Positions 9,777-34,015 of a DNA stretch of 34,608 nucleotides are shown in pieces. This DNA is from a virus. The DNA is taken from the IMG/VR virus record IMGVR_UViG_3300030098_002634, positions 1 to 34,608 of that record; one strand, written 5' to 3'. Each line of letters starts with the position of its first letter. Positions within the stretch are counted from its first letter, which is position 1. The position numbers and the translations under genes were made by a program. The notes beneath the pieces were generated by a model, which saw only the letters and a program-made list of their open reading frames with translations, made no database searches and was not told the origin of the DNA.

Positions 9777-10564
9777 GTGGATACGCAGGAAGTCCAGCAG
9801 GTTATCTTAACCCAGTGGCAGTAGACAAGATACAGCATCCAGATTACGATGCGAAGGCAGCAGAAAATATTACGATGAGGGTATGCCAATACCTATACCC
9901 CGTTTTGAAGAACTCTGTAGAGATGTTAGAAGCACTATGTAAGGAGACCGACGTTCAGGTTCCTACAGATTTAGCAGATAACATGGAGTTTCTAAAGACA
10001 GTTTACAATACTCAGATCGATTGGCATCCAAGAACAATGTATGGTGATGAGGCTGCGGAGGAGCTTAATGCTCGTCTCACCTTGCATGAGGAGTGGGCGC
10101 AAGAAGATAATTCACATCATAGCGTTTTGAACTGGCAAAACCCGTATGGCTCTGATGGCACACTCCAACAAGCTCCTGCCGTAACACAACCACCAATGAA
10201 TCCATATCAACAACCTATGGGACAAATGAATCCTTATGGACAACCTGGTATGCCAATGCAACAAGGCGGTGCAAGTATGTTTAAACCGTGGACTTGGTTT
10301 GGTGTAGGAACTGGAGCTGCTGCTGCGGCCCCTCAAGCATGGCAATTACCACCACCACAGTTAGACACATTATCTAACGGAGAACAATATTATACTGCAA
10401 ATGGAGGCGGGCCTCCACCTTTAGCAGTTCAACAAGGATATACCACATTACCAGTTGGAGGAATTGGCTGGAACATGGCAGGACAACCAATTGACATAAA
10501 CGGAATGGTTGTAGCAACTACAGGCGAGAAGTTGATGAACACGGCTTTGAGTAGGATACTATAA
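9773..10564 (+). CDS. Putative neck or minor structural protein with Pro/Gln-rich centre
   Basis: The start is set at ATG 9773, six bases after GGAGG and overlapping the previous TGA. A longer frame from TTG at 9761 is less likely. The protein has 263 residues: a helical N-terminal domain (about 20-110), a low-complexity Pro/Gln/Met/Gly stretch (about 130-170), a six-residue Ala run, and a Gly/Pro-rich C-terminal part. It immediately precedes the head-tail connector and overlaps it (TAATG), so a head-neck or accessory structural role is inferred. Confidence 0.6.
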   Translation: MSGYAGSPAGYLNPVAVDKIQHPDYDAKAAENITMRVCQYLYPVLKNSVEMLEALCKETDVQVPTDLADNMEFLKTVYNTQIDWHPRTMYGDEAAEELNARLTLHEEWAQEDNSHHSVLNWQNPYGSDGTLQQAPAVTQPPMNPYQQPMGQMNPYGQPGMPMQQGGASMFKPWTWFGVGTGAAAAAPQAWQLPPPQLDTLSNGEQYYTANGGGPPPLAVQQGYTTLPVGGIGWNMAGQPIDINGMVVATTGEKLMNTALSRIL

Positions 10565-11322
10565 TGGTAGCTTATTGCACAGCTAATCAAGTATCAGCTT
10601 TTTTACAGGTTGCAGATTTTAGTGGAAGCACTACACCTACGACCTCTGACGTAGAATCATTTATTGAAATGGCAGAGGAACGTATTGACCAGATGACTGA
10701 ACACGCATGGGCTACAGCAAGAGCTAAGAGTGTTACGGAAGAAAGGGTAAGAATACAGAGAGTAAGATCAAATGTAGTGAATACAAGGGGTAGAATACAG
10801 TTAGAGCATTTTCCTATTCTATCTTTTTCACAGCACGCAACTCCTACTTTATCTCAGACTAATGGAAACATTAAGCTATGGAATGGTAGCAAATATTTAG
10901 ATTATTTAGACTCTGATGAAAGTAAAGATATGGGAAGTTCTGTTACTGACGTAGTTAGCAAAGATTTCTGGGCCGACACAGAGAGAGGATTAATATACAT
11001 TAACAATTACTCAACATTTAATATGGTAAACAGTAGCCCAGCAGGAGTTGATGGATATGTCAGTTATAAGTATGCTACAGCATCTACTCCAGATGATATA
11101 AAATTAGCAACTATTTATCTAACTTCAGCTATGATTGCAATGAATGATGATTTAAATTTAATGCAGGAAGGCGATGATTCTATGGATAACGCTTCAAGAT
11201 CTCAAAAGTTTGAAGATATGGCTCTTAAGATATTAAAGGATAACAAGCGTATTGGTAGAAAATTGATAATGGCTACTGGAGTAGGTGGCTTTGGAATTGG
11301 GAGGGTTGCAGCAGATTACTAA
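10564..11322 (+). CDS. Head-tail connector (adaptor) protein
   Basis: This 252-residue protein has an N-terminal helical segment (TANQVSAFLQV, then DVESFIEMAEERIDQM) resembling the gp6/gp15 adaptor family that docks below the portal. The middle is beta-rich, with conserved spacing to a C-terminal helix bundle. The following genes are tail completion and tail tube, the canonical neck order. Adaptors form a ring that joins portal and tail. The assignment rests on N-terminal pattern and position. Confidence 0.65.
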   Translation: MVAYCTANQVSAFLQVADFSGSTTPTTSDVESFIEMAEERIDQMTEHAWATARAKSVTEERVRIQRVRSNVVNTRGRIQLEHFPILSFSQHATPTLSQTNGNIKLWNGSKYLDYLDSDESKDMGSSVTDVVSKDFWADTERGLIYINNYSTFNMVNSSPAGVDGYVSYKYATASTPDDIKLATIYLTSAMIAMNDDLNLMQEGDDSMDNASRSQKFEDMALKILKDNKRIGRKLIMATGVGGFGIGRVAADY

Positions 11323-17534: not shown

Positions 17535-18616
17535 TGCCTCTTATTGAAAGCACAATATCGGCAGATGCGCTTGATATTGAGGCTACGATTGATGGTAATC
17601 AATTTTTAACTATTAGTAAGATATTATACAAATCAGCAGTTAATGAACCTCGTTCAGTTACTCTTCAAATATCAGATAAAGAATCATTGTTAAAAGCTAG
17701 GCTTGGAGCTGAGTTAGTTATTACCGCAGGTAGAGGAAATGCAATACACAATTTAGAATTTAAAGGAATTGTTAAAGTAATCAAACCAGGTAATCAAACA
17801 CACACTATTGTAGCATTAGATAGGATTACTAGTTTAGCAACATCAGAATATGTTTTCTATAAAAACTCGGATTTAATTGGAGAAGATTTATATTATTTAA
17901 TTGTAGATGCAGCAGATTATAGAGATATAAATGTTACAAATGCATTAGGTGGCTCTGGAATTATAGCTACTAAAGAAATGAACTTAGGAGGTTTACAAAA
18001 GCGTAAAGACTTTATTGACAAATGCATGGAATATATGATCAAATCTTATGATGATAGTTTTCATAAAAAAACAGATTTCTTAAGATACAATTACGCAATA
18101 CGTTCAGGTAATTTGTTTGATTTGTATTTAACAGATTACAAAAGGATTGATGCGCAACCAGTTCTTACAATAAAAGAAGATAACGCTAACATAACTGGTG
18201 AAGGTATTGTAGCGCAGATCGACACAACTAGATTGTATAATTCTGTAACTGCACAAAGTAAAAGCGATTCAACGTTATTTGAAACTGTAAGTGATGAATC
18301 TAGCATAAAGCGTTACGGCCCTAATTCTACATTAATAACAGTAGATACTACAAATAGAGATAAATTAGAAGATGCTGCGTATGATGTTCTTCAAGCATTT
18401 TCTACTCCAACATATAGTTATACAATAACAATGCATAATTCAGAATGGTTAGGGTTAGGTGATTTGATAGCATTAGATGTTCCAATGTTAGAGAAAGATA
18501 TTGTTTTACCAGTTGTAGCTTATGAGACAGAGTTAGGTAATACGATTGTAACTAAGTTAACAGTAGGAGAACCTACGCTAACACTGAAAGACTTTGTAAG
18601 ACAACTACAACTTTAG
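17534..18616 (+). CDS. Baseplate hub / tail-tip protein candidate
   Basis: This 360-residue protein is the last of the rightward tail block. The pattern of an N-terminal strand domain (LTISKILYKSAVNEPRSVTL), a middle helical/strand domain with KRKDFIDKCMEYM, and a C-terminal domain with SYTITMHNSEWLGLGDLIAL resembles the hub family (gp27 / late-control-D-like) of tailed viruses. It overlaps by four bases the 3' end of the convergent leftward gene, so the two operons meet tail to tail with no spacer. Confidence 0.6.
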   Translation: MPLIESTISADALDIEATIDGNQFLTISKILYKSAVNEPRSVTLQISDKESLLKARLGAELVITAGRGNAIHNLEFKGIVKVIKPGNQTHTIVALDRITSLATSEYVFYKNSDLIGEDLYYLIVDAADYRDINVTNALGGSGIIATKEMNLGGLQKRKDFIDKCMEYMIKSYDDSFHKKTDFLRYNYAIRSGNLFDLYLTDYKRIDAQPVLTIKEDNANITGEGIVAQIDTTRLYNSVTAQSKSDSTLFETVSDESSIKRYGPNSTLITVDTTNRDKLEDAAYDVLQAFSTPTYSYTITMHNSEWLGLGDLIALDVPMLEKDIVLPVVAYETELGNTIVTKLTVGEPTLTLKDFVRQLQL

Positions 18617-19365
18617 AATAGTTTTGTCTGTTGTTTATCTACCTCTTCCCAGGGATTTAACTTAAGCTCTTCAACCTTATAATACACTCTTGCGATGTTT
18701 CTCCATTCTTTTACATACATAGGTCTCAATGTTTTTTTGTTCTGAGCTGCAATCAAATCAACTTGTTTCATTAGATTTCTAAGATTAAATTCATCTAATG
18801 TGTTAATGTTGTAAAATCTTTTAACATAATCTAAACGCTTCCAACGCTTATGGCCTAACTCTCCAAATGTAATAATCAAACCTTTCTTAACCAGTTTCAA
18901 AGATAAATCAAAACATTCGTATGCGGATCCAAAGGGGTCTAAGTCAATTAAGTCAAACTTTTTTCCATCATAATACATTTTACATAACAGTTTTAAAGAA
19001 GGTAGATTAAAATCACAATTAGTAAATTCTTTGTTTTTATCATTAGTAGTTAAAATTATATCTTGTAGCAATCGTTCTTTGTAATTTTTGTAAAACGATT
19101 CTTCTCCAGCATATAAATCTAAAACGTTTGTAGGTTGAATATTAAGTAAATACTCTGTGTTAGTTTTGTATTTGTCTTTACGATGTTTATCATTATATGT
19201 AGTGTTACTTTTGTTTAATCTTTTAAGTTTTATCTGGATTGACACTTCTGTTCTATCAAGTTTTTTGGCTATATCTTTGTTAGATAATCCTTTTGCTTTT
19301 AATTCTTTAAGAGCTTTGATGTCGTCATCATCCCATTTGCGTGGTTTACTTTTTGTAACGTGCAT
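18613..19365 (-). CDS. HTH plus Trm1-like SAM methyltransferase
   Basis: This 250-residue protein has an N-terminal helix-turn-helix (about 10-50, with LSNKDIAKKLDRTEVSIQIKL) followed by a Rossmann methyltransferase domain. Motif I is VLDLYAG (81-87) and motif IV is DLDPFGS (141-147). DPFGS is characteristic of the Trm1 family, which dimethylates guanosine 26 of tRNA. Cellular Trm1 is longer (about 370 residues or more) and carries a C-terminal domain missing here, so the substrate may differ. The HTH could direct it to DNA. Its start overlaps the stop of the upstream methylase (TAATG), so both are co-expressed leftward. Confidence 0.65.
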   Translation of the reverse strand: MHVTKSKPRKWDDDDIKALKELKAKGLSNKDIAKKLDRTEVSIQIKLKRLNKSNTTYNDKHRKDKYKTNTEYLLNIQPTNVLDLYAGEESFYKNYKERLLQDIILTTNDKNKEFTNCDFNLPSLKLLCKMYYDGKKFDLIDLDPFGSAYECFDLSLKLVKKGLIITFGELGHKRWKRLDYVKRFYNINTLDEFNLRNLMKQVDLIAAQNKKTLRPMYVKEWRNIARVYYKVEELKLNPWEEVDKQQTKLF

Positions 19366-20093
19366 TACATCAACCTCGTTTGTGCTAATATGTCATCCCA
19401 TATTGGTTTTAGGTTTTCATTGATGTCGCATCCCCAGGCTTCACGTTCCAAATTATTTGCTGCAATTAATGTACTGCCTGAGCCACACATAGGATCTACT
19501 ACTAAATCTCCATTATCAGTAGTTGTTAATATTAATCTACTAAGTAATTCAAACGGTATCTGATTTACATAGTTTAGCTTTTCTTTAGCGTTAAACTTAC
19601 AGATGTTAATATCCCACCAATTATAGAGATTGCATCCACGTTTGCCTTTAGCTAATTGCTTTTGTATTCTTTTATCATCAAGATTCTTATATGGTTGAAC
19701 TACTGCGTCTATCTTTATTTTTGGTTCTTCTTTGACTAACCAAAGCACAGCTCTACTTGCTTTAGTAAATCGTTTACTTGAGAATCCAAAGTTACTATTG
19801 TAGACCCAAGTTATCCATTGATGTGTGTTCCATTGAGTATCTTTTATTGTAGAATAGAGTTCAGCAGTTACTTCAGGATAGTTTATCATAAAGAAAGATG
19901 CCGAATCCTTAGATACATCATATGCAATATCTAATACTTCTTTTATTGTTTGTTTATACTCTTCAGGGTCTAAGTTGTCTTTGTATTTAGATTGGTAATC
20001 AAATTTGATGTTATATGGCGGATCCATAATAAACGTTTGAACATCTTTAACATTAGGCAATGCCTTTCTAAAATCGTTTAGTTCAAAGTCCAT
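19365..20093 (-). CDS. N6-adenine / N4-cytosine DNA methyltransferase (beta class)
   Basis: This 242-residue protein has the catalytic motif DPPY at residues 24-27 and the SAM-binding motif DPMCGSG at 200-206. This order (IV before I) defines the beta group of amino-methyltransferases (N6_N4_Mtase family). The C-terminal GCDIN strand binds SAM. No restriction endonuclease neighbours it, so it is an orphan methylase that probably protects viral DNA from host restriction or marks it for regulation. It overlaps the small zinc protein upstream by 11 bases. Confidence 0.88.
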   Translation of the reverse strand: MDFELNDFRKALPNVKDVQTFIMDPPYNIKFDYQSKYKDNLDPEEYKQTIKEVLDIAYDVSKDSASFFMINYPEVTAELYSTIKDTQWNTHQWITWVYNSNFGFSSKRFTKASRAVLWLVKEEPKIKIDAVVQPYKNLDDKRIQKQLAKGKRGCNLYNWWDINICKFNAKEKLNYVNQIPFELLSRLILTTTDNGDLVVDPMCGSGSTLIAANNLEREAWGCDINENLKPIWDDILAQTRLM

Positions 20094-22988: not shown

Positions 22989-23131
22989 TGGCCCAAGAAG
23001 GTTATGGTAAATGGCATTATGGATTAGTAGATTTAAAATGTAAAAAATGTAATAAAACATTTAAACCATTAAGTCAAAGTTATGGTTACTTAGATAAAAT
23101 GGGATTTTGTATGTGGTGTGCAGGTGAATAA
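22988..23131 (+). CDS. Small zinc-ribbon protein
   Basis: This 47-residue protein has CKKC (about 18-21) and CMWC (about 41-44). It overlaps both neighbours by a TAATG junction. Placed directly before the small terminase. Confidence 0.6.
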   Translation: MAQEGYGKWHYGLVDLKCKKCNKTFKPLSQSYGYLDKMGFCMWCAGE

Positions 23132-23616
23132 TGCCTCGCTATAACGATACAATAAAAGAAGAAGCCAGGGCATTATATTTACAAGGAATGGGCTACAAAA
23201 CCATTGCAGCTAAATTAAGAGAACAACATCAAAACAAACTATCATTTACTTCAATTAAAAGATGGGCCGATAAAGAAAATTGGCAAGAGGTTTTAGAAAA
23301 ACAAAGAAAGGCTATACGTTCCGAAACGGATCGAAACGCAACCCGTTCTAATATAAAGAACATTAAGACCCTACAAGCTATACGTTCTAAATTTATTACT
23401 CAGTTAGAAACTAGTTCATCTGAAATACGCCCTTATGAAATGGTTTCAGTAATTAGAGAGCTACAGAGGTTAGAAGGTGCTAAAGATTTACAGGATACTT
23501 TAGTGGAAGAGGTTGCAGAGAAGTTGCCTGAAGCAATGAAAAAAGCTAAGATCCCGCAGAAGAAAATTAATCTTATAATTAGATATTGGGTAGAAATGGT
23601 TCAGGAGATGGAATGA
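23131..23616 (+). CDS. Terminase small subunit candidate
   Basis: This 161-residue protein has at residues about 7-50 a helix-turn-helix (EEARALYLQGMGYKTIAAKL, then SFTSIKRWADKENW) of the type in TerS and DNA-binding phage proteins. Helical oligomerisation segments fill the rest. It lies two genes upstream of the large subunit. TerS recognises viral DNA and starts packaging. The identification is by HTH, size and position. Confidence 0.65.
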   Translation: MPRYNDTIKEEARALYLQGMGYKTIAAKLREQHQNKLSFTSIKRWADKENWQEVLEKQRKAIRSETDRNATRSNIKNIKTLQAIRSKFITQLETSSSEIRPYEMVSVIRELQRLEGAKDLQDTLVEEVAEKLPEAMKKAKIPQKKINLIIRYWVEMVQEME

Positions 23617-24158: not shown

Positions 24159-24314
24159 ATGTTTAGGATCTGCGATAGTGAAACAGGAGAGGTAATATTT
24201 CAAACAGATGACATACAAAAGTTATCTGATTATATGGTTGCTAGAGATGCTAAGTATATTACAGTATCAAAGAACCAGGAGTATATTGACGAGTGTCTAA
24301 TATCGAAGGATTAG
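24159..24314 (+). CDS. Hypothetical 51-residue protein
   Basis: It begins MFRICDSETGEVIFQTDD and is followed by a helix and the strand AKYITVSKN. It directly follows the methylase stop and overlaps the terminase start at 24293. Its 3' part contains CCAGGAG, the likely ribosome site for the terminase. Confidence 0.55.
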   Translation: MFRICDSETGEVIFQTDDIQKLSDYMVARDAKYITVSKNQEYIDECLISKD

Positions 24315-25756
24315 AATTATTTACACAACACTTTTTAGCTAAAGGTTTAGCGGAGCAAGATCTTGATTTTATGGATTTTGCTAGCGATGTTCTTACAGAT
24401 TTTATGAGGCAAGAGCCTAGTGACTTTGTTCCATTAGGAAAGATGCATAAAGAATGGTATAACACAATTAATGATAACAAACATTACGTAGGAATAATGT
24501 GTGCAAGAGGCCATCTTAAGACTACATTTACTTTGACTTACTGTGCGTATATGATGCATAAATATCCTAACTTTAGAGCATTGTATGTATCTGCAACATT
24601 AGACCAGGCAATAGATAAGTTAGAACAGTTTGAAGAATTATGTAAACGTTCTTGGCGGTTGTCTAGTTTTATAAAAGGTAAAGAAGATGGCGGATCATGG
24701 AAAAAGAGTGAGAAGTTCTTTAACAATGGTAGTAGATTGAGAGCAGCTTCTACATCTAAATCTTTGGAAGGGCCACACGTTCATTTAATTATTTTAGATG
24801 ATATATTAGAGGAGTTTCCTAGAATGACGGATGATAGAGTTATTCATTATATCAAAAGAGTTGTGATGCCAATGCGGTTGCCTGAAGGCAAGATATTATT
24901 GATAGGAACACAAAAAAGAATAGGTGATGCTACGGATTGGGTAAGGCAGAGTCCTGATTGGTCGCACGTTTGGCATCCTGCTGTAAAAGAAGATGGAACA
25001 CCTAGATGGCCTGAATATTGGAATGAAGATAGATTAGAAGCAGAACGACATGCTATGGGTAGTAGAGCTTTTGAGTCAGAATATTTGTTGAATCCACTTG
25101 ATCCAGAAACCGCAGTTATTCCGTGGAATACAATAGAGCCTTGTTTAGATGAGTCAATAGGTTTTGGTAATCCCTTAGAAAAAACAGATATTGTTATAGG
25201 TGTTGATTTGGCAGTTGGATTAGATACTGCAAATGATGAAACTGCATATAGTGTATTGTCGTATGATAGAGATACAAAAATGCGTCACCTGATTTATCAG
25301 TGGTGTGGTAAGGTAAAAGCAGAAGGGGCAGGTTGGCTAACTGCTCAGGTAAAGAATTTGGTAGATTTAGCTAACAAATATAATCCAACAATGGTTATGG
25401 TAGAAACTAATGGGTTCCAAAGATTAGTAGCACACGCAGCTAAGGACTTAGCATCATTACCTGTTAAAGGGCATAGGACAGGTTCAGAAAAACATCACGC
25501 ACAGATTGGTATTCCTAGAATAGCGTTAGCATTAGAACAAGGCAAATATATTATACCCTGGAACAAAGAAGTGAATAAGGCAGGGCCAGTGGGATCAAGG
25601 AAATTGGTAGAAGGCTTGTCTAGGTTAATGTGGGGAAAGAACGGCAGGTTAGATGGACATACATCAGATGCAGTAATATCTTTGTGGATGTGTGAGTTGG
25701 CGTTGCAAGAAATAGATAAACGTGGGATACGAATAACAAGCTGGGATAACTTCTAG
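24293..25756 (+). CDS. terL: Terminase large subunit (TerL)
   Basis: This 487-residue protein starts at GTG (24293), inside the previous gene. The ATPase domain has a Walker A variant CARGHLKTT (70-78), Walker B LIILDD followed by E (165-173) and coupling motif LLIGTQKR. The RNase-H-like nuclease has acidic residues at D305 (VIGVDLAVG), E371 (VMVETNG) and D459 (GHTSDAV). TerL pumps viral DNA into the prohead and cuts it. Length and motif order match the family. A noncoding, highly structured region follows immediately. Confidence 0.93.
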   Translation: MSNIEGLELFTQHFLAKGLAEQDLDFMDFASDVLTDFMRQEPSDFVPLGKMHKEWYNTINDNKHYVGIMCARGHLKTTFTLTYCAYMMHKYPNFRALYVSATLDQAIDKLEQFEELCKRSWRLSSFIKGKEDGGSWKKSEKFFNNGSRLRAASTSKSLEGPHVHLIILDDILEEFPRMTDDRVIHYIKRVVMPMRLPEGKILLIGTQKRIGDATDWVRQSPDWSHVWHPAVKEDGTPRWPEYWNEDRLEAERHAMGSRAFESEYLLNPLDPETAVIPWNTIEPCLDESIGFGNPLEKTDIVIGVDLAVGLDTANDETAYSVLSYDRDTKMRHLIYQWCGKVKAEGAGWLTAQVKNLVDLANKYNPTMVMVETNGFQRLVAHAAKDLASLPVKGHRTGSEKHHAQIGIPRIALALEQGKYIIPWNKEVNKAGPVGSRKLVEGLSRLMWGKNGRLDGHTSDAVISLWMCELALQEIDKRGIRITSWDNF

Positions 25757-25773
25757 TTTCTATATGCCTTCGG

Positions 25774-25811
25774 AATTTCTATAATGCCTAGAAATTGCAT
25801 AATTTTCTAGG
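25774..25811. repeat. Overlapping inverted repeats after terL
   Basis: AATTTCTA (25774-25781), TAGAAATT (25789-25796) and AATTTTCTAGG (25801-25811) form two alternative hairpins that share the middle arm. A further TTTCTATATGCC copy lies at the terL stop. This could end terL transcription, serve as an operator for the promoter 30 bases on, or be a switch. Confidence 0.5.
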
Positions 25812-25836
25812 ATTCGTGCTTAAATCATTAACCCAA

Positions 25837-25850
25837 CGCTTATATAACCC
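25837..25850 (+). promoter_or_regulatory. Archaeal TATA box for the structured RNA
   Basis: CGCTTATATAACCC matches the TATATAACCC box of the other rightward promoters. Transcription would start near 25868, exactly where the run of hairpins begins, with no start codon in reach. Confidence 0.7.
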
Positions 25851-25867
25851 TAACAAACTATAGTATT

Positions 25868-26360
25868 GTTGCTTAGGCAACTTGGTTGGAAACAACCAGC
25901 TAACAGGTGGCGACACCTAAGACGGCTGGCTTCTTACCAGAAACGCCCCCGAAACGAAATAATGGCTTAGTTCCCGAAGGTTCGCAAGAACAGACGTGAC
26001 GATGACTAACATAACATAAGCGAGTTAGCTGCTACACTTCCAGAAGGCGTAGTTTCCACTGGTTAGGTCAAAAGTAGTTTCAAAAGATACAAACTGGAGT
26101 AGGTATCTGGGGCGATTACAGTCATACGCAAACATTTGTTCCTTAGTGGTAGCAAAGACGTGAGATCCTCAAAGCTCGACAAGTCTTTGTGTGAGGCATT
26201 AAGTAAAAAGAATAAGTTCAAGCTAAACTACATCTTAAGAGCAAATGTTTGCCTGGCACCATTACAGTAACAACGGGTTTTGTTTCCCGTTGCAAACCTT
26301 TTCTTGCGAGGTGTTACAAATGGCAAGAAGGGTTTGGCCTTACCTTTCCCCAAAAGGCCA
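25868..26360 (+). ncRNA. Large structured noncoding RNA candidate (about 490 nt)
   Basis: No convincing gene covers this stretch on either strand. Local helices: GTTGC/GCAAC (25868-25881), TGGTTG-GAAA-CAACCA (25883-25898), AGGTG-GCGA-CACCT (25905-25918), CTGG/CCAG (25926-25940), GTTC-GCAA-GAAC (25980-25991), CTAAC/GTTAG (26006-26028), CTAC/GTAG (26032-26052), AGTTT/AAACT (26076-26095), CAACGGG/CCCGTTG (26271-26292), a 14-bp bulged hairpin (26293-26336) and GGCCTT/AAGGCC (26336-26359). An 11-bp helix GCAAACATTTG/CAAATGTTTGC (26128-26138 with 26242-26252) encloses CAAAGAC/GTCTTTG, TTAAG/CTTAA, and a pseudoknot CCTCA/TGAGG (26167-26171 with 26192-26196). Three of the loops are GNRA. A promoter precedes it. 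It may belong with ornate viral RNAs of the GOLLD/ROOL kind, but I cannot match it to a known family. Confidence 0.75.
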
Positions 26361-26371
26361 CAAAACCAAAG

Positions 26372-26617
26372 GTGAGAAAATTGGCCCGAAATAAAAACTA
26401 CGACCCAAAAGGAAAACAGCATTTGTTAGACGCTGGCGTAAACAAAGAGAAACAATACATCCTTAGTTGGATGAGAGAAGAATACGGAAAAGGAAACGTA
26501 TCTGAAGGAATATGGATTGCATTAGCAAACCACATAGAAATATTAGAAAAAGCAAGAGCTAAATCTAACATGAAAGCACAAGACAAATTTTTTGCTCTTG
26601 TAGAGAAGTGGGGGTGA
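26372..26617 (+). CDS. Hypothetical helical protein
   Basis: The start is placed at GTG 26372 (81 residues). An open frame exists back to 26249, but that part runs through the structured RNA hairpins and is unlikely to be translated. The TTG at 26381 is an alternative start. The protein is basic at the start and then helical (EKQYILSWMREEYGKGNVSEG, IALANHIEILEKARAKS). Function is unknown. Confidence 0.55.
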   Translation: MRKLARNKNYDPKGKQHLLDAGVNKEKQYILSWMREEYGKGNVSEGIWIALANHIEILEKARAKSNMKAQDKFFALVEKWG

Positions 26618-28491: not shown

Positions 28492-29898
28492 ATGGGATTC
28501 TTTGACAGATTTAGGAGCAAGCCAAAGCAGAGCCGTGTTCAGGCATATTTAGATGGAAATATGAACGGTCTTGAGAAAGAAGCTCGAACTCCTGTTTATG
28601 ATATGGCTCCTGCAATGGGAAGCACTGGGCCAATGCGCATCGATCCACCATATAACTTACATCATTTAGAAGATTTATCAATTAATTATTCTCATTTACA
28701 AACAGTAGTAACCAGGATAGCTTCGCAAACTGTTGCTAAAGGATACCGATTAGAACAAACTGTAGAAGCTCCAAGTGAAGACCAACAAAGGATATTTGAA
28801 CGTCTTTTGGTAGACCCATCAAATGGAGAAACAGATATTACTGGAGAAGAATTTTGTAAAGCACTTATTAGGCAATTAGAAGTATTTGATGACGCTTGGG
28901 TTTCTGTAGTATATGATTATGTTAAAGATGAATCAGGTAGAATATTAGGAAAGCAAGTATCTCAATTATGGGTTGAAGATTCTAAGTACATGAGATTTAA
29001 CACGGACAGATATGGTAAATTCCAAACCGAAAATAAGTTTTGTCCTACTTGCAGAAAAACAATGAATGGCTCAGCTTGTGCAGAATGTGGCACTGGTTTA
29101 GAATTGATTGCTTATACATTTGAAGACCCTGAAGGAGACATTCCTTTTGCAAGAGATGAGATCATACATTTTAACAAATATAGTTCAACAGCTCGCCTTT
29201 ACGGTGAATCACCAATTATAGGTCTTTCTAAAAAAATCGAAACGGCTTTAGCCATTGAAGCATACCAAAATAAACTATTTCGATTAGAAAGGCCACCCAA
29301 AGGATTCTTAGATATTCCTAATTTAGATGAACAAGCACTTAATAGATTAGGTGAATACATTGCAGAAGAAACCAGGAGAAATCCTAACTTTGTTCCAATT
29401 ATATCATCAGGAGAAGGACAGTCGGGGGCTAAATTTGTATCTATTATGCCAAGTCAAAATGAATCTGGTATGATCCCGTATATGGATAAAATAAACCAAG
29501 ATATAAACGCATCTTATGGTGTTATGCCATTAGCAGTTGGTGATGTGTCTGGTGTTGGTGGATTAAATGCTGAAGGCGAACAGTTGTCAATGATGGACAG
29601 AACAATTACGGAAACACAGCAAATCTTAGTAAACGGCTTTTTCAAACCATTAGCAGATTTATTAAAAGTAACAGATTGGGAAGTTGTGTTTAATGACATT
29701 GATGAACGCAATGAGCAACAACATCTTGCTAACTTACAAACTAAAGCTAATGTGATTGCATCATTCCAGGCTGTAGGAATTACAGTAGATTTAGATGAAG
29801 AAGGAGAGTTAGTATTACCACAAACAAACTTAGAAAGTTTGCCAACGTCGCTGGTGGAAGAGGAGCCAAGCGAACAAGCAGACTTGTATCAGCCTTAG
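28492..29898 (+). CDS. Portal protein with inserted zinc ribbon
   Basis: This 468-residue protein fits the HK97/SPP1-type portal family: an N-terminal clip-stem region, wing core with LSINYSHLQTVVTRIASQTV, DEIIHFNKYSS (about 215-226), and a C-terminal stem/crown segment ASYGVMPLAVGDV. Portals form the 12-fold ring through which DNA enters. An extra CPTC (184-187) and CAEC (196-199) pair forms a zinc knuckle not typical of portals. It is followed by the MuF-like gene, the usual order. The stop is at 29898. Confidence 0.8.
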   Translation: MGFFDRFRSKPKQSRVQAYLDGNMNGLEKEARTPVYDMAPAMGSTGPMRIDPPYNLHHLEDLSINYSHLQTVVTRIASQTVAKGYRLEQTVEAPSEDQQRIFERLLVDPSNGETDITGEEFCKALIRQLEVFDDAWVSVVYDYVKDESGRILGKQVSQLWVEDSKYMRFNTDRYGKFQTENKFCPTCRKTMNGSACAECGTGLELIAYTFEDPEGDIPFARDEIIHFNKYSSTARLYGESPIIGLSKKIETALAIEAYQNKLFRLERPPKGFLDIPNLDEQALNRLGEYIAEETRRNPNFVPIISSGEGQSGAKFVSIMPSQNESGMIPYMDKINQDINASYGVMPLAVGDVSGVGGLNAEGEQLSMMDRTITETQQILVNGFFKPLADLLKVTDWEVVFNDIDERNEQQHLANLQTKANVIASFQAVGITVDLDEEGELVLPQTNLESLPTSLVEEEPSEQADLYQP

Positions 29899-29975: not shown

Positions 29976-31004
29976 ATGCTACCAATGTTAATGATTTCAT
30001 TATCTCAAGATCTTAAGAATTTAGTAAATGAAGAAATGCGAGATGCTTATATTCATGGTTTTAAATCTGCTGCATTAGAAGATAAAGTTAAAGTATTAGA
30101 GAAACAAGATAAATATTCTCATATTAATTTTAAACCAACAGCAGCAATGGCTAAAGAAGCAGCTAAAGGTTTAGAATATCGTAAAGAGTTTAACAGAGGC
30201 GGAACTGAAGTAGGGGTTGCAAGAGCTAGAGATATTAAGAACCGTAAGAACTTATCACCAAGAACTTGTAAAAGAATGAAAGCTTTTTTTGATAGACATC
30301 AAGTAGATAGACAAGGAGAGAATTGGGGTAATGAACATAATCCAAGTGCAGGATACATTGCGCATTTACTTTGGGGCGGAGATGCAGGATATTCTTGGTC
30401 AAGAGCTAGAGTGCGTCAGATAAATGCTGCTGATAAGAAAAAAGGGGGGGTAAATGGCCTTGAAAAAGGAGAAACGAACGATTTAGTATATAAAGCAGAG
30501 ACATTAGCAATAGATTTTGATCAGGCTGATGAGGATGCAATTAGGGCATTACAATCAGGTCAAGTGCAGACAAATAACTACAATGAGTTGTCTACTGTAC
30601 TTAGCGCAAAATTAAATACTGAAATTAATAATGCAATAGTAGAAGGCCGTAGCATTCCTAATACTGTAGCGGCGATGCAGAAAGTAATTAACACAGAAAC
30701 TTACAAATTAACCAGAATTGCAAGAACTGAAATAATTAATGTAACCAATGAAGGTAGGTTAGCATCTTATCAAAAACAAGAGAAGGTTCGTAAAAAACCT
30801 TTCAGATATACATTAGTTGTTGCATCAGGAGCTAGGACTTGCGATGCTCATAAAGAATTAGATAGTAAGATTCCTGCTAAAGGATTGTTAATGAATGAAT
30901 TAATAGAATTACAGCAGCAAGTAGGTGCAAGCTATGGGTTTACTTTAAGAGGCAATTCTTTGTTGCATCCAAATCAGAGAACTGTATTGATGAGGGTTCC
31001 ATGA
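29976..31004 (+). CDS. MuF-like head morphogenesis protein with extra N-terminal domain
   Basis: This frame encodes 342 residues from ATG 29976. The frame is open without a stop back to 29799, and the upstream codons read like protein (VSALDRNLAVTIKREVNRL), so the true protein is probably longer. Residues about 68-150 are a phage domain with YRKEFNRGGTEVGVARARDI and PSAGYIAHLLWGGDAGYSW. The C-terminal half has the MuF/SPP1 gp7 pattern (LTRIARTEIINVTNEGR, then GARTCDAHKELDSK and LLHPNQRT). MuF proteins join the head at assembly and may enter with DNA. Confidence 0.72.
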   Translation: MLPMLMISLSQDLKNLVNEEMRDAYIHGFKSAALEDKVKVLEKQDKYSHINFKPTAAMAKEAAKGLEYRKEFNRGGTEVGVARARDIKNRKNLSPRTCKRMKAFFDRHQVDRQGENWGNEHNPSAGYIAHLLWGGDAGYSWSRARVRQINAADKKKGGVNGLEKGETNDLVYKAETLAIDFDQADEDAIRALQSGQVQTNNYNELSTVLSAKLNTEINNAIVEGRSIPNTVAAMQKVINTETYKLTRIARTEIINVTNEGRLASYQKQEKVRKKPFRYTLVVASGARTCDAHKELDSKIPAKGLLMNELIELQQQVGASYGFTLRGNSLLHPNQRTVLMRVP

Positions 31005-33016: not shown

Positions 33017-34015
33017 ATGGCCACTGATTCTAAAGGCTGGAAAGTCTATCGCAAAGAATGGTATAATGATAGGATTATGGAGACCTACATTAACGCACCA
33101 ATTATAGATAAACAGAATGATTTAATCCCCACTAATGTATTAGAAGATTCAATGGATTTCTATATGAAGTATGGAGTTTATTCTTATCAACATGAAGAAA
33201 TACCTATTGGTTTACCATTAGCTTACAAGATAGACGATGGTAAAATTAAAGTAAAGTATGGCATTCATAATCAATTAGAAATGCATGATAATGTATGGAA
33301 AGAGATAAAGGACTTTGGAACAAAAGGAGCTAGTAGTATTAGGGGTGAAACACTGTCTCAGGATATGGTTTGCCCAGAAGGAGCTGATTCTTGTTTTAAT
33401 AAAATTAATGATCTTGGATTGTGGTCTGTATCATGGGTTGGCGACAATCCAGCTAACGTAGAAGCTACTGTAACAGACGTTGCAATGGCTAAAGCCGACA
33501 AAGGACTTAACTTTATAAATGAAAGTAATAAAATAGCAGTTATGGCTAAGAAAGACGCAGATTGCGAATGCACAACAGAAAAAGCAGAGGAGACTGAAGT
33601 AGTAGAAGAACCTGAAGTCAAATCTGAAGAAGTTAGCGTTGAAGTCATTGAACCTGAAGAATTACCTGATGTAGTTGATGAAGAGGAAGTCAAAGAAGAT
33701 GAACCTGAAGAACTAACATTAGAAATGCTTGCAGAGGAAATGAAAGCAATGCGAGCTAAGCTAGATGAAATGACACCTGAAGAAGAAAAGGAAGATGAAA
33801 TGGAAGAGGAAGCAGAGAAATCTGAGACCGAAACCGAAGCTGAACCTTCTTTAGAAGTCGTTATGAAATCACTTAAGAAATACGGAATATCCGTATATAC
33901 TGGAACTAAGGCAACACCAGCTCCAGTAACTGACACTCCAAAAGTAGAATCCTTTGATTGGAACAACGTATCTAAATCCTGGGATGAACTTGAAGAAATA
34001 ATAGGAGACAACTAA
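33017..34015 (+). CDS. XkdF-like prohead protease fused to acidic scaffold
   Basis: This 332-residue protein has an N-terminal half (about 1-150) resembling the XkdF-type serine protease, with YINAPIIDKQNDLIP (about 24-38), a histidine at 59 (YSYQHEE) and a serine pair at 106-107 (GASSIRGE) as candidate catalytic residues. The second half is extremely acidic and low in complexity (about 180-280), typical of scaffolds, and ends with a helix (NVSKSWDELEEII) of the kind that contacts the capsid. It lies directly before the capsid gene. It should shape the prohead and then remove itself by cleavage. Confidence 0.75.
   Translation: MATDSKGWKVYRKEWYNDRIMETYINAPIIDKQNDLIPTNVLEDSMDFYMKYGVYSYQHEEIPIGLPLAYKIDDGKIKVKYGIHNQLEMHDNVWKEIKDFGTKGASSIRGETLSQDMVCPEGADSCFNKINDLGLWSVSWVGDNPANVEATVTDVAMAKADKGLNFINESNKIAVMAKKDADCECTTEKAEETEVVEEPEVKSEEVSVEVIEPEELPDVVDEEEVKEDEPEELTLEMLAEEMKAMRAKLDEMTPEEEKEDEMEEEAEKSETETEAEPSLEVVMKSLKKYGISVYTGTKATPAPVTDTPKVESFDWNNVSKSWDELEEIIGDN

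Follow-up and report, generated by a model that had tools for sequence, protein, structure and literature searches.

Comparison among related viruses shows that the plus strand directly behind the large terminase gene (terL) of IMGVR_UViG_3300030098_002634, a 34.6-kb linear virus record from IMG/VR analyzed over all of its 34,608 nucleotides (hereafter, the window), encodes a structured RNA composed of exchangeable, independently closed domains. As judged from the same comparison, these domains lie between a conserved 5' start and, mostly, a 3' double pseudoknot, and they are separated by short ATTACA linkers. The first-pass annotation of this DNA had proposed a large ornate noncoding RNA after terL, and the relatives bear this out for an RNA that is larger than was noted, adding its modular make-up, its linkers and, at 26267-26361, the double pseudoknot T. 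The locus contributes a large class of RNA and about a dozen new families of recurring RNA domains, whose members are exchanged whole at defined junctions. The array may be the RNA equivalent of a modular multidomain protein or of a cassette array.

Organization of the locus in the window

The window array consists of the M1 hairpin, M2, module A, ATTACA, module B, ATTACA and module T (Table 1). Its limits agree closely with the earlier ones, as the start at 25868 is exact to the base, corresponding to the first G of the hairpin GTTGC-TTAG-GCAAC, and the end at 26360 is upheld by a final structured module reaching 26361 and a next gene with a TTG start at 26381. No credible gene lies between these limits, the longest plus-strand open stretch being 55 codons vs. 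64 in shuffles. All three GNRA loops reported previously (GAAA, GCGA and GCAA) were found; the GCAA loop is not conserved, and relatives have GGGAU. The 11-bp helix described earlier is likewise real (GCAAACATTTG/CAAATGTTTGC, near 26128-26138 with 26246-26256), and the candidate pseudoknot inside it is backed by two compensatory changes. As for gene X, the ORF containing it yielded no PHROG or Pfam match, its C-terminus is conserved (AQDKFFALVEKWG) and an AlphaFold model of it was unusable (pLDDT 52).

Table 1. Features of the array and of its surroundings in the window.
Feature	Position	Strand	Remarks
Small terminase	23131-23616		weak match
Methyltransferase gene			between small terminase and terL in gene order
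terL, large terminase	24293..25756	+	phrog_38, E 2e-56; array directly 3'
Promoter cassette	25759..25849	+	upstream element TCTATATGCCTTCGG; exact TATA match
TATA box CTTATATAACC	25839-25849	+	same cassette precedes leaderless ORFs of relatives
M1, 5'-terminal hairpin	25868..25881	+	GUUGC-UUAG-GCAAC; 25868 = inferred first RNA base
M2, conserved 5' domain	25880..25939	+	helix CCAGCU/GGCUGG; hairpin AGGUG-GCGA-CACCU; closing UGGU/ACCA
Module A	25943..26113	+	closed by GCCCC/GGGGC
Linker GATTACA	26114..26120	+	TTACA between modules in most arrays
Module B	26121..26260	+	base GUCA-UAC-GCAAACAUUUG / CAAAUGUUUGC-C-UGGC; pseudoknot CCUCA/UGAGG
Linker ATTACA	26261..26266	+	
Module T, two H-type pseudoknots in series	26267..26361	+	first part: P1 GUAACA/UGUUAC, P2 hairpin, P1b, P3 UCUUGC/GCAAGA; second part: P4 hairpin, P5 GGCCUU/AAGGCC
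Gene X, 78 aa	26381..26617	+	TTG start; conserved in 10 relatives, 11 homologues aligned; behind some arrays only
Portal	28492-29898		
Mu-F-like head protein	29976-31004		

Evidence for RNA structure

One earlier statement, that the density of structure is far above that of other gaps, is not reflected in the folding energies. The minimum free energy of the whole region has a z-score of -1.7, with 6 of 100 shuffles being equally good, and 150-nt windows of the array score inside the range of the remaining genome. Folding energy was rejected on these grounds as too weak a proof of structure, and because it is unimpressive by itself, the proof is taken from the relatives and is comparative rather than thermodynamic. 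The lowest folding z-scores of the window occur at 10501-10650 (-4.1) and 33751-33900 (-3.8), both within genes.

The richest comparative record comes from module T, of which 16 distinct copies were aligned by their helices. Of 493 pair cells, 490 hold, a count that is flattered by an alignment drawn with the helices in mind, and 13 pairs exhibit double changes. Helices P2, P3, P4 and P5 are all altered on both sides, for example from UCUUGC/GCAAGA to CUCAAG/CUUGAG in P3 of the related locus L017 and from GGCCUU/AAGGCC to GGUCUU/AAGACC in P5. When the substitutions of the tree were redealt at random in 500 simulations, the strictest form of this tree-aware null reached at most 445 paired cells and 8 double-change pairs, and the loosest at most 392 and 11. 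A structure-blind MAFFT alignment gave 95.7% paired, with P2 and P5 misplaced. Furthermore, a covariance model constructed from the unaided T alignment after removing L017 and one L032 copy (L032c) recovered both (7.5e-9 and 2.5e-12, respectively) and had no match outside the arrays. An R-scape-like test of single pairs in T is not significant, lacking power with n=16 related copies, and was replaced by the tree-aware test at the level of helices, which is positive.

Similar patterns extend to the other modules. Among nine distinct rows of M2, 100% of cells are paired and four of the six main-helix pairs are altered on both sides; the three copies of module B have 104/104 cells paired, with its pseudoknot changing from CCUCA/UGAGG to CUCCA/UGGAG; and module A has three pairs with double changes. 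G-U cells are frequent on the plus strand (about 29 in T), which identifies it as the RNA strand, since the complementary strand would have A-C mismatches in their place. The array shows compensatory changes and no coding signal, the general marks of a structured noncoding RNA.

Promoter, transcript ends and viral context

The distance from TATATA to the first M1 base (GTTGC) is exactly 27 nt in 15/15 promoter-holding arrays, counting from the final TATATA where the box reads TATATATA, in line with the earlier remark that a TATA box lies at the right distance from the first hairpin. An identical interval of 27 nt separates the GCTTATATA box from the ATG at all 18 listed leaderless ORFs of these viruses, several of which carry the upstream element of the array as well. 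This equal spacing puts the RNA where a leaderless gene would otherwise stand, and its most likely first base is 25868, i.e., 27 nt from the TATATA at 25841. We strongly infer that the array has a TATA promoter of its own, from which transcription begins at that base. A promoter cassette of ~100 bp (TATATGCTTTCGG ... AAGCTTATATA) is also repeated before leaderless accessory genes shortly downstream of terL (L004:3591, L005:8100, L012:8100, L023:8100 and L043:2473), and some of the repeats run into near-identical first codons (ATGAGCAAA...AACTCA).

At their 3' ends, the arrays are more varied. Those of L032, L027 and L043 stop ahead of TTTTT and another promoter cassette, as befits a stand-alone unit, and TTTTT would terminate transcription in archaea. 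Some arrays extend up to the next gene, and in the window gene X follows 20 nt after T with no T-run there, such that the RNA may in part serve gene X as a leader. Taken further, the entire region could be a long 5' UTR controlling gene X and the genes that follow it in cis. In favor of this, the ribosome site of gene X is immediately preceded by T or a minimal GUCA-UCAAAU-UGAC hairpin at 11 loci. However, gene X is missing behind at least eight arrays (L006, L008, L014, L021, L027, L032, L040 and L043), the three arrays ending in TTTTT are separated from what follows by a new promoter, and up to 1.2 kb of swapped contents would be unusual for a leader, all of which renders control in cis improbable.

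The gene order of the window is of the tailed-virus type, and the closest described portals all derive from archaeal tailed viruses, namely HVTV-1, HCTV-5 and a Methanofastidiosa virus. Together with the TATA boxes and the leaderless genes, this points to archaea, which are probably the hosts of the virus group carrying the array. Judging by the sample numbers, the group is probably marine. Neither M2 nor relatives of TerL were found among GTDB genomes, so these provide no link to a host. On the minus strand, the window has only two clearly recognizable genes (18613-20093), one encoding a regulator-like protein that carries a DNA-binding domain at its N-terminus and the other a DNA methyltransferase.

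Module strings among related viruses

A TerL search of IMG/VR provided 30 related loci, to which DNA patterns added the arrays of L032, L037 and L040 (by M2) and L043 (by T), and all arrays were read directly; the pattern matches L065, L066 and L069 are due to chance. All-against-all comparison resolves the arrays into strings of sharply bounded blocks. Within the compared stretch, the match of the window to L040 (98%) ends at position 355, and those to L006, L003, L016 and L032 end at 357, 358, 361 and 374, respectively. Module A ends at 357; the first four matches stop at this edge, while that of L032 continues through the linker and just into the module behind it.

The 15 arrays with an intact 5' end have 15 different module strings. 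In addition to M1-M2-A-B-T of the window, these include M1-M2-A-K-F-T (L003), M1b-B (L008), M1-M2-F-C (L010), M1b-T (L011), M1-T (L017), M1-M2-D-E-T (L019), M1-M2-A-D-C-O-T-T-T (L032) and M1-M2-A-G-C (L040). M1 is always first, usually with M2, T closes most arrays, and varied modules lie between. M1a, M1b, M2, A, B, C, D, E, F, G, P and T all recur, as does the minimal hairpin; blocks K, J, N and O occur once each and are defined by their surroundings only. In M1b (L008, L011 and L018), a longer insert takes the place of the M1 loop. Module A is common to the window, L003, L006, L016, L032 and L040, and in part L018, and module B to the window, L008 and L014. Modules B, C, D and H have the common base GUCA-NAC-GC...GC-YN-UGAC, and ATTACA stands behind most modules. 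Wherever present, module A is directly 3' of M2, as is module F in two of the three arrays that have it, and T is followed only by more copies of T (one shortened, in L027) or by the minimal hairpin. The array occurs once per contig, on the same strand, and directly behind terL wherever the contig has terL.

Some modules vary internally as well. Module A of L016 (2344-2559) contains an insert of ~44 nt that forms an additional hairpin (ACTAATAAA...TTTATTAGT) at the top of the module, which is a case of module growth by helix insertion. Module P (L027:1176-1359 and L021:3482-3564) repeats several times a sub-motif near RUAURGGRAGGCUUUCNGCRAUAY, a possible protein-binding hairpin, and the shortened T-like unit behind T in L027 (1710-1790) has the second pseudoknot only (GGCTC/GAGCC).

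The arrangement of the strings has a bearing on two other explanations. The transcript could be a polycistron of small RNAs, cleaved at its ATTACA linkers into modules that act alone, much like a tRNA array. Each module does have its own closing helix, TTACA is recurrent between modules, T is found in tandem two or three times, and minimal arrays (M1b+B, M1b+T and M1+T) exist. Conversely, the order within these arrays is constrained: M1/M2 always come first, nothing other than T copies or a small empty hairpin comes after T, and A and F, where present, almost always adjoin M2 on its 3' side. To our knowledge, there is also no nuclease site for such cutting, and we regard this explanation as rather unlikely. 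Alternatively, the locus might function at the DNA level as MITE- or integron-like cassettes with inverted ends for recombination, RNA folding being a by-product. The inverted ends shared by modules B, C, D and H (GTCATACGCAAA/TTTGC..TGAC) and the repeated ATTACA flanking them would fit such cassettes. Against this, no copy exists outside the single locus in any contig, no tyrosine recombinase (PF00589) was detected in 22 records, all of them fragments, by a search whose positive control gave 14/14, the internal helices covary with G-U pairs on one strand, and the promoter spacing is fixed, which makes a DNA element very unlikely.

An accessory locus beside a conserved terminase

Comparison of these genomes shows the array to be an accessory element of these viruses. 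There are 11 related TerL contigs without it, and array sequence was absent elsewhere in their records, which are fragments. On the TerL tree, presence of the array requires at least nine changes, five of them forced by well-supported branches, and it is not clustered. L012, which has no array, and L013, which has an ORF and T but no other module, encode identical TerL proteins, and L002, the nearest relative of the window with 99% TerL identity, has the promoter and T only. L009 (7464-7734) and L013 (3055-3326) have, ahead of T and in place of the RNA modules, a gene for a small protein (MSKNNSTTK...) with that same promoter, so that a single site exchanges RNA for protein cargo.

This on/off pattern among viruses with near-identical TerL strongly disfavors a required partner of the packaging motor. 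The first-pass annotation had suggested a packaging or virion role comparable to the phi29 packaging RNA (pRNA), for which the position behind terL, and nothing else, speaks. Both RNAs adjoin a packaging gene, but the array is dispensable, modular and missing beside the same TerL, and the TerL in question is of the phrog_38 type and not the phi29 ATPase. We therefore consider a packaging or virion RNA exceedingly improbable.

Possible functions

The reading we tentatively prefer, based upon sequence comparison, is that the array may encode an accessory RNA that acts in trans, with interchangeable domains that would bind host factors as decoys, in counter-defense or in host takeover. M1/M2 and T would cap the ends of the RNA effector, conferring stability or recognition, while the middle modules would serve as binding domains or decoys for host factors and would be swapped as hosts and rivals change. 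Counter-defense or host takeover would be the most likely purpose, given the fast turnover, the gene-like promoter and the swapped content, which are also seen in such accessory genes. The tRNA-elbow-like pieces of some modules would fit the binding of tRNA-handling proteins. Somewhat more speculatively, these combinatorial, self-contained RNA domains with their fixed 5' start and frequent 3' pseudoknot cap could constitute an exchangeable arsenal of archaeal viruses against host systems. Behind the trans-acting RNA, the other explanations rank in the order of polycistron, leader of gene X, DNA cassette element and packaging RNA. Since near-identical viruses differ at the locus, they form natural comparison sets for the role of each module. 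Should the modules neutralize host systems, archaeal viruses would offer in this locus a catalogue of RNA inhibitors.

Relationship to known RNAs and cassette systems

The earlier failure to match the RNA to GOLLD or ROOL is confirmed by covariance-model searches, in which neither the window nor 15 related loci matched any Rfam family at the gathering score and the GOLLD and ROOL models had no match at positions 25700-26500 of the window even at E 10. Weak Rfam matches in the window (snoMBII-202, mir-1542 and others) were dismissed as chance. GOLLD and ROOL are nonetheless nearest in spirit to the array, being phage-encoded RNAs of 0.5-1 kb with many helices and pseudoknots. One end of GOLLD is universally conserved and the other variable (PMC12286853), whereas the arrays can have both ends in common, with a combinatorial string between them. 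Assembly into an RNA-only cage is another hallmark of GOLLD and ROOL. GOLLD and ROOL are also often near a tRNA island, unlike the array, which is not in one and has a probably archaeal host; no tRNA genes were found in the window or 21 loci. An integron cassette array similarly has a fixed promoter end followed by variable cassettes, but the cassettes here are gene-free RNA domains and no integrase was found. Neither the window array nor three others matched GenBank phages or PLSDB plasmids, and no description of a modular RNA of this kind was found in the open-access literature. Whole-domain exchange at defined junctions is common for proteins, but we know of no description of it, or of such exchange between fixed ends, for any noncoding RNA.

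Type III antitoxins and the PhiTE mimic are phage-borne RNAs of tandem pseudoknot units directed against a host system, the ToxI repeats being about 36 nt. T is likewise a pseudoknot unit, present singly or as two or three copies in tandem, but it is about 95 nt with two pseudoknots and has no Rfam match. Phage PhiTE evades ToxIN via RNA-based molecular mimicry (PMC3475682), which sets a precedent for RNA mimics in viruses.

Resemblance to tRNA is confined to particular relatives, the window array having no tRNA-like piece. Positions 720-766 of L040 contain a tmRNA-like T-arm (below threshold), and in L043 a T-arm followed by a D-arm (22-71) scores 24.7 bits with the YrlA model, below the gathering score of 69; these pieces suggest contact with tRNA-handling proteins. 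The permuted T-arm-D-arm order is shared with YrlA and bacterial Y RNAs, but it is below threshold and limited to module H of L043. The Ro60/TROVE gene (PF05731) is absent from 11 records, all fragments. Within that module (L043:7-219), another T-arm-like sequence, GTGGGTTTAAATCCCA, and a D-arm-like stretch come after the YrlA-like elbow, such that module H possibly contains two permuted tRNA mimics in tandem.
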